Assembly: GCA_905480335.1 (NCBI GenBank)
Contig: CAJQPY010000005.1
Location: 124,001 to 188,000 of the forward strand
Length of the DNA stretch: 64,000 nt
Source: an uncultured Ilumatobacter sp.
GTDB taxonomy: Bacteria; Actinomycetota; Acidimicrobiia; Acidimicrobiales; Ilumatobacteraceae
Direction of reading: 5' to 3'
A program made the position numbers and the translations under genes. A model generated the notes under the pieces. The model was not told where the DNA came from and did not search any database. It was given only the letters and a program-made list of their open reading frames with translations. Shown piece after piece: positions 30,287 through 52,255 of the stretch (the first letter of the stretch is position 1; every line of letters starts with the position of its first letter).

Positions 30287-30793
30287 ATGACCGAGCAGCG
30301 CACCGCCAGGGTCGCACCGGGCACCAAGGGTGACCGGGCACTCAGCGGTGCGCTCATGCAGTTTGCGGCGGCTGCTGTGCGCAATGACCTGGTGGATCCA
30401 GTGACGACCGAGCTGGTCCGACTCACCTGCGCGTCATACCACGACTGCCACACTTGACTATCTTTGCGCTCGGCAGTTGCCAAGCAGCACGGACTCGACG
30501 AGCGCCTGGTGGGTCAGCTCAGTGCGACCGACCCCGACCTGACCGACGCTCAGATCGCTGCGATCGATTTCGCAACCGCCCTGATGACCGATCCGGCGGG
30601 CATCTCGGCCGACCTGCGCGCCCGCCTGCACCGTCACTATTCGCGGGAGCAGCTCATCGAGCTGGCGCTCGATGTCATGAAGTGGAGCTATCAGAAGGTG
30701 CCGGTCGCCCTCGGCGTCGACAGCGAGGTGAATCCGGGCCGGCTCACCGACCTCGTCTTCGACGACGACGGCAACTGGGTCCGCCCAACCTGA
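30287..30793 (+). CDS. AhpD-like selenoprotein (in-frame TGA read as Sec57)
   Basis: A 168-residue CMD/AhpD-family protein when the TGA at 30455-30457 is read through. Before it: LVDPVTTELVRLTCASYHDC ending in Cys54-His55-Thr56; after it, in the same frame: LSLRSAVAKQHGLDERLV and the C-terminal helices ending VNPGRLTDLVFDDDGNW. In this family the motif is HDCxxC, so the TGA takes the place of the second redox Cys and gives CHTU, the CxxU form known in AhpD-like selenoproteins. A hairpin with loop AGUU starts 7 nt after the TGA. The rest of the frame is undamaged. Expected role: peroxide or disulfide reduction. Alternative: a recent nonsense mutation, less likely given the hairpin. Confidence 0.8.
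30458..30489 (+). promoter_or_regulatory. Bacterial SECIS-like hairpin after TGA 30455-30457
   Basis: Pairs by eye: 30465-30467 with 30487-30489, 30468-30470 with 30483-30485 (A486 bulged), one C-A mismatch, then GGC 30472-30474 with GCC 30479-30481. The apical loop AGUU (30475-30478) has a G in its second position and starts 17 nt after the TGA, within the 16-37 nt range reported for bacterial SECIS elements, the SelB binding sites. Confidence 0.7.
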
Positions 30794-48393: not shown

Positions 48394-49950
48394 ATGAGTG
48401 ACGAACGACGGGGCGGACGCCGTTCCGGTGGCCGCGCGGGACGTGCGGCAACGCGGGCGGCATCAGCAGCACCGACTCCGAAGTACCTGCACCGGCAGAT
48501 CCGACCGTACGAGCTCGTCACCGACGAACAGCTCGAACTCATCGAGCAGAATGCCGACACCATTCTCGAACAGGTCGGCGTCGAATTTCGGGGCTACCCG
48601 ACGGCACTCGAGCGGTGGAAGGCCGCCGGTGCCGAGGTCGACGGCATCCGCGTCCGCTTCCCACGCGGGCTGTGTCGAAAGATCGTGCAGGACTCGGCAC
48701 CGCGTCAGTACACGCAGCACGCCCGCAACCCGGCGAACAACGTAGAGATCGGTGGCGACAACACCGTCTTCGCACCGAACTACGGGTCCCCGTTCGTTTA
48801 CGACCAGGACGCCGGGCGTCGCTACGCCACGATCGGTGACTTCGAGAACATCGTCAAGCTCACCTACATGTCGCCACACCTGCACCACTCGGGCGGTACC
48901 GTGTGCGAGCCCGTCGACATCCCGGTCAACAAGCGCCACCTCGACATGGTGTACGCCCACCTCAAGTACAGCGACAAACCATTCATGGGGTCGGTCACCG
49001 CCGGCGAGCGAGCGACGGACTCGATCGAAATGGCACGAATCGGTTTCGGGGCCGATCTGCGCGACGAATTCGGTGTCGAACGCACCGTGATGTCATCATT
49101 GATCAACGCCTCGTCACCCCTGGTGTGGGACGACACGATGCTCGCCGCCGCCGAAACCTATGCGGCAGCAAACCAGGCATGCATCATCTCGCCGTTCATC
49201 CTGGCCGGGGCGATGGCGCCGACGACCGCCGCCGCAGTTGCTGCACAGACCCTTGCCGAAGCACTCGCCGGCATGGCTTTCTGCCAGCTTGTCCGACCGG
49301 GTGCTCCTGTCATCTTCGGGTCGTTCGCATCGTCGATGTCGATGGCCACCGGTGCGCCGACCTTCGGCACGCCGGAACCGGCGATCGTGCTCTATACCGT
49401 GGCGGCGCTCGCACGTCGACTCGGTGTGCCGTTCCGCTCCGGTGGTTCGATGACCGCGTCGAAGGTCCCGGACGCGCAAGCGGCCTACGAGTCGACATCG
49501 ACGATCATCCCCACCGTGATGGCGGGCGTAAATTTCGTCCTGCACGCCGCCGGCTGGATGGAAGGTGGCCTGGCCTTCGGCTACGAAAAGTTCATGATGG
49601 ACGCGGATCAGCTCGGCATGATGATGAAGTTCGGCAGTGGGCTCGACATGAGCGAGAACGGGCAAGGCGTCGATGCATTCCTTGCCCACACCCCCGGCGA
49701 ACACTTCCTCGGAACGGCTCACACACTCGCCAACTTCGAGACTGCGTTCTACCGCTCCGCCATCGCCGACAACTCGAGCTTCGAACAATGGACCGAAGAC
49801 GGCGGGACGTCGGCCGCTGACCGGGCGAACAGCGCGTGGAAGTACGCGTTGGCGACCTACGAGGCGCCGCCGTTCGATGATGCCATCGACGCGGAGTTAC
49901 TCGACTACGTGGGTCGCCGCAAGGCCGAGATGCCCGACGAGATCGGCTGA
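48394..49950 (+). CDS. MttB-family methyltransferase, pyrrolysine-free
   Basis: A 518-residue member of the trimethylamine methyltransferase (MttB) superfamily. The frame is open throughout with no in-frame TAG, so it belongs to the non-pyrrolysine branch, which includes glycine betaine:corrinoid methyltransferase (MtgB). Seen: TDEQLELIEQNADTILEQVG, NYGSPFVYDQDAGRRYATIG, GGTVCEPVDIPVNKRHLDMV and FGYEKFMMDADQLGMMMKFG. It would move a methyl group from a quaternary or tertiary amine (glycine betaine is the best guess) to the corrinoid protein. The N-terminus is basic and low-complexity. It has its own operator-containing promoter and a GGGGGG ribosome site. Confidence 0.88.
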   Translation: MSDERRGGRRSGGRAGRAATRAASAAPTPKYLHRQIRPYELVTDEQLELIEQNADTILEQVGVEFRGYPTALERWKAAGAEVDGIRVRFPRGLCRKIVQDSAPRQYTQHARNPANNVEIGGDNTVFAPNYGSPFVYDQDAGRRYATIGDFENIVKLTYMSPHLHHSGGTVCEPVDIPVNKRHLDMVYAHLKYSDKPFMGSVTAGERATDSIEMARIGFGADLRDEFGVERTVMSSLINASSPLVWDDTMLAAAETYAAANQACIISPFILAGAMAPTTAAAVAAQTLAEALAGMAFCQLVRPGAPVIFGSFASSMSMATGAPTFGTPEPAIVLYTVAALARRLGVPFRSGGSMTASKVPDAQAAYESTSTIIPTVMAGVNFVLHAAGWMEGGLAFGYEKFMMDADQLGMMMKFGSGLDMSENGQGVDAFLAHTPGEHFLGTAHTLANFETAFYRSAIADNSSFEQWTEDGGTSAADRANSAWKYALATYEAPPFDDAIDAELLDYVGRRKAEMPDEIG

Positions 49951-51226: not shown

Positions 51227-52255
51227 ATGACCGACGCACAGATCGCCCTACTGGAGACGGGTCCGCTCGTCGATGCCGGATCACTGCCCGAGCTCATCGG
51301 CTGGGAACTGAAGCCCGAGGGGCTGTGCCGCGACGAGCAGTGCGTGATCGTCACCGACCGCGAGGCGCTCGGCTCCGACGGCCAGATCGACCTCCGCGAG
51401 GTCGCTGGATTGCTCGACCGACCCGTCGCCATCGACAGCGACGCCGGCCTCGTCGCAGTCGGAGCTGCGCGAGCGGGGCGGCGCGGGGCACTCAACGACC
51501 TGCGGGCGCCCGACTTCACGCTCCCGGGCCTCGACGGGACGTTCCACTCACTTGCCGACCATCGCTCCAAGAAGAAGCTGCTCGTCGCCTTTTCAAGTTG
51601 GTGAGGTTGCCTTTTCGATCTGCCAGGTTGGCAGGTACTCCATGACGAACTGGCCGAACACGGCTTCCAGGTGATCGCCGTCGCCATCGACGAAGCGGCC
51701 GACGCGCTCCGCGACTACATCCGTGACCACACCGACGGCATCACCTACCCCGTGCTGATGGACAGCGACCATCTCCTCACGGAGCTGTATGCGATCTCGA
51801 ACGTCCCAACCGTCCTGTTGATCGATGAGAGCGACACGATCGTCCAGCCCAACTGGAACGCATACGCGACCGACACGTTCAAGGACTTCACAGGTATCGA
51901 CTCAGGTGATCAACTCGACGCGATCCGTCGCTGGGTGATCGACGGCGAGACACTGATGACCGCCGACGACGCCCGTGGTGCCGTCGACGACCTCACCGAC
52001 GAGGAGGAACAGGCGCGGCTCCACTTCCGACTCGCCGTCCACCTGCGCAACGCCGGCGACACCACCGGATCGGAACGCAACTTTGACCGCGCCTGCCAAC
52101 TCGCACCAAACGATTGGACGATCCGCCGCGCCTCGCTTCCACTCCGCGGCGGCGACCCGTTCGGGCCCGAGTTCTTCGAACTCCTCGCCGAGTTCGACGA
52201 AGCTGGGCGCCCATACCACGGCGTCAACCACTCCGGGCTCCCCACCGCACCCTGA
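51227..52255 (+). CDS. Redoxin-like selenoprotein (in-frame TGA read as Sec126)
   Basis: A 342-residue protein when the TGA at 51602-51604 is read through. Residues 1-95 form an N-terminal domain with LIGWELKPEGLCRDEQCVIV; a redoxin/AhpC-TSA domain follows: LRAPDFTLPGLDGTFHSLAD, KKLLVAFSSW, then TGA126-Gly-Cys128, then LFDLPGWQVLHDELAEHGFQ, VIAVAIDEAADALRDYIRDH and ISNVPTVLLIDESDTIV. The expected residue after SSW is the catalytic Cys, so Sec replaces it and gives UGC. The C-terminal part is helical (HLRNAGDTTGSERNFDRACQ), TPR-like. The hairpin with loop AGGUU just downstream supports Sec insertion. Likely a thiol peroxidase or disulfide reductase. Confidence 0.8.
51605..51636 (+). promoter_or_regulatory. 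Bacterial SECIS-like hairpin after TGA 51602-51604
   Basis: CTGCC (51620-51624) pairs with GGCAG (51630-51634), extended by U-G and A-U below. The loop AGGUU (51625-51629) starts 20 nt after the TGA and resembles the AGGUCU loop of the E. coli fdhF SECIS as I recall it. Confidence 0.72.

Follow-up and report, generated by a model that had tools for sequence, protein, structure and literature searches.

We find that the gene at positions 51227-52255 (+) of the window, by which we mean the whole stretch of 64,000 nucleotides analysed here, almost certainly encodes a selenoprotein, with an in-frame TGA at residue 126 that is predicted to be read as selenocysteine (Sec). The product, here called the UGC redoxin, has a predicted length of 342 residues and is probably a cytoplasmic ResA/TlpA-like thiol-disulfide oxidoreductase, in which Sec126 would be the attacking residue and Cys128 its partner. 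A redoxin selenoprotein with a UGC active site had been proposed in the preliminary description of this locus, and the proposal is borne out by a conserved TGA with Cys counterparts in homologs, co-occurrence of the TGA form with the Sec machinery, a constrained and covarying SECIS hairpin, and purifying selection that extends downstream of the TGA.

The reading frame, supported by translation, homologs and dN/dS, contains only one internal TGA (51602-51604), which is codon 126 when numbered from the ATG at 51227, and terminates at the stop TGA 52253-52255. Translation confirms that the internal TGA directly follows AFSSW and precedes Gly-Cys, as had been described. The frame also continues as stated there, although the 217 further codons that had been counted comprise 216 sense codons and the stop. 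Cys128 (51608-51610), the presumed resolving partner of Sec126, is invariant in both protein alignments (A1 and A2). On either side of the TGA the sequence has similar coding properties: GC3 is 0.83 upstream and 0.81 downstream, the codon-usage score is positive in both parts, and dN/dS is 0.18-0.26 upstream and 0.12-0.18 downstream. The codons flanking TGA 126 on either side are under purifying selection and, as judged from the sequence, the segment 3' of the TGA is translated. Automatic annotation would split or truncate this gene at the TGA.

The window comes from a genome of 2.95 Mb that is 94% complete. The nearest named relatives of the gene are found in metagenome genomes of Ilumatobacter and other Acidimicrobiales, with 64-72% identity. 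No conserved operon was found in the gene neighbourhood; the function of the UGC redoxin is not readable from its context because the neighbouring genes are shared with very close relatives alone.

To compare codon 126 across homologs, we used a set obtained by searching the phylum, the class and the genome collection, in which 81 distinct homologs were readable at this codon. We observed TGA in 63 homologs, TGC in 14 and TGT in four. A residue other than Cys at this position, which the preliminary description had named as grounds for rejection, was found in none of them, as all 81 carry either Sec (TGA) or Cys. In a tree of the UGC redoxin homologs, at least nine changes between Sec and Cys are required, five of which are forced by well supported branches. 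Furthermore, 33 positions are invariant in 23 homologs, and most of these are located at or downstream of TGA 126.

The form of the enzyme follows the presence of the Sec machinery. SelA was found in 33 of the 34 tested genomes with a TGA form (27 with the UGC redoxin subfamily and seven with only a paralog of the NF041054 type) compared to one of the 17 genomes with a Cys form, whose Cys codons were all read directly (Fisher p = 4e-11; the Fisher and binomial p-values given here overstate independence and are indicative only, because the homologs and genomes are related by descent). The exception among the TGA-form genomes is one that is 79% complete (G546), where no SelA was seen. The enzyme has switched repeatedly between its Sec and Cys versions, and the Cys versions accompany the absence of the Sec machinery. 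The sole tested genome that combines SelA with a Cys-form enzyme (G520) has a SelA score of 602.9 bits, which is very unlike the scores of the others; this may reflect a recent swap between Sec and Cys or a mixed bin.

Some members of the homolog set deserve separate mention. In one homolog (L093), two listed TGAs suggested a second Sec; this was rejected, as the translation has one internal TGA followed by the stop. A short distant relative (L035, at 1600) has SSW-U-T-C instead of U-G-C and retains a SECIS-like hairpin with a CGUGU loop. Lastly, a match on a Streptomyces plasmid (L114, NZ_CP107820.1 14400-16000) is an unannotated, frameshifted remnant of the UGC redoxin family in which the active site cannot be recognised.

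The Sec machinery (SelA, SelB, SelD and tRNA-Sec) is complete in the source genome; its absence would likewise have spoken against the original proposal. The selC tRNA, for which a look had been recommended, is present as a tRNA-Sec with 66.5 bits and the anticodon tca. The selA gene (398.8 bits, cut-off 267.9) adjoins selB (275.4 bits, cut-off 242), and SelD scores 365.7 bits, above its cut-off, and has an in-frame TGA of its own. The encoded SelB protein has a C-terminal SelB-wing_3 domain, the domain that contacts the SECIS in known SelB proteins.

Downstream of the TGA, we found the hairpin with an AGGUU loop that had been reported previously. This predicted bacterial SECIS, CUGCC-A-GG-U-U-GGCAG, is located at 51620-51634 (+), and its 5-nt loop (51625-51629) starts 20 nt downstream of TGA 126, with an N1-N2 pair between 51625 and 51628 and an unpaired U at 51629. 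The 21-nt hairpin segment has a folding energy of -10.6 kcal/mol (z = -3.4 compared to shuffles), and the base of the stem is a U-G wobble in this gene whereas it is C-G in most relatives. All six hairpin pairs are standard in 63 of 63 TGA forms compared to 6 of 18 Cys forms (p = 3e-10, again indicative only). Over the whole hairpin, 100% of the cells are paired and there are 22 changes on both sides after collapsing identical rows; these changes fall in three pairs, none of 500 shuffles scored as high, and slid controls were far lower.

The stem is formed by the codons of Leu132-Pro133 paired with those of Trp135-Gln136, which means that the protein motif D-L-P-x-W-Q by itself accounts for part of the stem, and codon usage alone makes the hairpin in those 6 of 18 Cys forms. 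We therefore examined positions that the protein does not constrain. The third base of the Leu132 codon is G in all 62 TGA forms with Leu, compared to about 41% of the other Leu codons of these genes. Gly134 is encoded by GGC in 0 of 45 TGA forms but in five of seven Cys forms, and GGC is used in 50% of cases elsewhere. Codons 133 and 134 have complementary third bases in every TGA form (C-G 44, A-U 12 and G-C 7; 63 in total) compared to seven of the 18 Cys forms. In addition, among the nine closest homologs no stretch of the gene is more conserved at synonymous sites than codons 131-136. We conclude that the hairpin is under selection as an RNA.

An Rfam scan of the window revealed no selenium-related RNA. 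The published model of the bacterial SECIS has a loop N1-G-[G/U]-N2 in which N1 and N2 are paired (PMC13188914, Fig. 2), and the likeness to a classical bacterial SECIS loop that was noted earlier holds against this model. The loop has the form N-G-[G/U]-N'-U with complementary N and N' in 63 of 63 TGA forms; the 20-nt spacing, the stem of 5-6 bp and an energy below -7.5 kcal/mol all fit, and no feature of the hairpin conflicts with the model (PMC13188914). Since this pattern is already published, the hairpin is a known element and not a new one. The homolog data also put the N1-N2 pairing of this loop model to a strong test in nature.

Two readings without Sec have to be weighed against these observations. 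TGA 126 might be a genuine stop, so that the locus would be a pseudogene or a gene in two pieces whose second part starts from GTG 51671; the open reading frames of the standard code do terminate at 51604 and resume at 51671. We consider this extremely improbable, as the TGA is conserved across the phylum in 63 distinct homologs, exchanges with Cys alone and is accompanied by SECIS covariation, which computationally contradicts a stop, whereas dN/dS is low downstream and a start at 51671 would lose the first helix together with the active site. Alternatively, an ordinary suppressor or an altered genetic code that reads UGA as Trp might decode codon 126. We found no point in support of such decoding and give it hardly any credence: the 18 homologs of 18 without TGA have Cys at this position and never Trp, TGA forms co-occur with SelA, and TGA terminates ordinary genes in the window as well as the UGC redoxin gene itself.

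Turning to the protein, we distinguish three parts. The N-terminal domain (about residues 14-92, 51266-51502) includes Cys34 (codon 51326-51328) and Cys39 (codon 51341-51343) in a GLC-x4-CV motif (51326-51343), a pair with a putative redox role. Both are invariant in 32 of 32 aligned proteins, including the paralog of the NF041054 type, and they lie on adjacent strands in the AlphaFold2 model (mean pLDDT 92.8). For this domain, Pfam gave no match, sequence matches in the PDB were at chance level only, and Foldseek returned none below E 1; a suspected resemblance to the stalk domain of copper amine oxidase was supported by none of these searches and was rejected. The second part is a ResA/TlpA-like redoxin domain (about residues 88/92-240, 51500-51946), as detected by Pfam and structure matches. 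The third is a helical, TPR-like C-terminal part (about residues 257-325, 51995-52201), whose helices have a pLDDT of about 90 or more in the model and whose TPR_2 match of 19.0 bits is under the Pfam cut-off of 27. By inspection of the N-terminus, without a predictor, no signal peptide is evident, and the protein is thus likely cytoplasmic.

Is the enzyme then a ResA/TlpA-type disulfide oxidoreductase or a selenoprotein acting as a peroxiredoxin-type peroxidase? A peroxidase would agree with the top ranks of AhpC-TSA (54.6 bits) and Redoxin (46.1 bits) in Pfam, with the name 'Prx-like' given to the family in the literature (PMC2398784) and with peroxiredoxin structures that also align, at Z of about 11.7. 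Structures of the ResA type score higher, aligning over about 136-146 residues with Z of 13-15 (3gl3 14.8, 4nmu 14.2, 1st9 13.7) and with 77 bits for 1st9 by profile. Furthermore, Sec126 is at the position of the first Cys in the ResA C-x-x-C, and the T-x-x-U/C peroxidatic motif of Sec peroxiredoxins, taken from a literature table, is missing, with S-S-W-U-G-C in its place. Peroxidase activity is therefore a serious but rather doubtful alternative. The site had been described as 'peroxidatic or nucleophilic': it is indeed a Cys position in homologs, whereas 'peroxidatic' is not established because the fold is closest to thiol-disulfide oxidoreductases of the ResA/TlpA type.

For a ResA/TlpA-like selenoenzyme, we propose that SelB carrying Sec-tRNA(Sec) would bind the hairpin just 3' of UGA 126, upon which Sec would be inserted. 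Sec126, which takes the place of the first Cys in the C-x-x-C of ResA, would attack a disulfide or peroxide (a direction of reaction that we infer), Cys128 would resolve this attack by a Se-S bond and complete the cycle, and a reductant would then reset the Sec126-Cys128 centre. The Cys34/Cys39 pair may relay electrons. A more elaborate scheme, which we regard as speculative and unlikely as a whole, is a self-contained cytoplasmic selenoenzyme of a separate subfamily, where the C-x4-C pair would relay electrons to or from Sec126-Cys128 and the TPR-like tail would pick a partner protein. If true, the protein would have a redox-relay domain of a fold unmatched among the solved structures searched.

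The window likely contains a second selenoprotein gene. An AhpD/CMD-like protein with C-H-T-U (CxxU) is encoded at 30287-30793 (+), with a TGA at 30455-30457, a Pfam CMD score of 23.6 bits (cut-off 23) and a GGC-AGUU-GCC hairpin downstream of the TGA. We found this gene independently, and it is probably the second recoded redox gene mentioned in the preliminary description; CxxU CMD-like selenoproteins are already recorded in the literature. Outside the window, a further CMD-domain gene (L119, G000:C40:37301-37549) also has an internal TGA, and the source genome thus probably holds several selenoproteins. Separately, Rfam PYLIS_3 matches at 49446-49549 (+) with 40 bits (cut-off 38), within an MttB-like gene of 518 codons and no internal stop; this match probably reflects shared coding sequence.

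When comparing the UGC redoxin to known families, we find that the gene is real and well supported but not new in kind, as its family has been predicted since 2008. The Global Ocean Sampling study of that year described 'Prx-like (UGC-containing)' proteins with 46 selenoproteins and 855 Cys homologs (PMC2398784); in later reviews the UGC family is still predicted, the latest name being 'UGC-containing TlpA disulfide reductase family protein' (PMC9312934, PMC13188914). With these entries the UGC redoxin shares the UGC motif, the AhpC-TSA/TlpA-like fold and a basis in computational prediction only, and it has the U-G-C motif within a pfam00578/cd02966 domain by which the literature defines UGC selenoproteins. 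What has been published on these entries covers the motif and the domain but not the three-part layout, and the comparison made here is with these descriptions. Literature searches on NF041054/WAxxUGC and on selenoproteins in Acidimicrobiia found nothing. The gene is a clean, testable example of Sec use in Acidimicrobiia and other Actinomycetota.

The closest curated family is NCBIfam NF041054 (WAxxUGC_long), a 'ResA-like WAxxUGC motif-containing protein' whose profile spans the N-terminal part, the redoxin domain and the UGC motif. The UGC redoxin matches it over residues 15-216 with 196.9 bits, whereas the curated cut-off is 300, and only weakly in the C-terminal part; the search of the genome gave 165.4 and 23.3 bits. 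Instead of WAxxUGC it has F-S-S-W-U-G-C, and among its relatives some have W-A-S-W-U-G-C and others F-A-T-W-U-G-C. A true member with 409 bits, an in-frame TGA and a WAPYUGC motif is encoded by a paralog on the same contig (G000:C5:75886-76998; L038, L058), about 98 kb away and outside the window. From these scores we conclude that the UGC redoxin belongs to a sister subfamily within the predicted family. Compared to ResA/TlpA proteins (PDB 1st9, 4nmu, 1jfu), it shares the redoxin fold with the ResA topology and aligns Sec126 with the first active-site Cys, whereas C-x-x-C is replaced by U-G-C with the second Cys one residue early in the profile alignment, neither a membrane anchor nor a signal peptide is evident, and additional N- and C-terminal parts are present.
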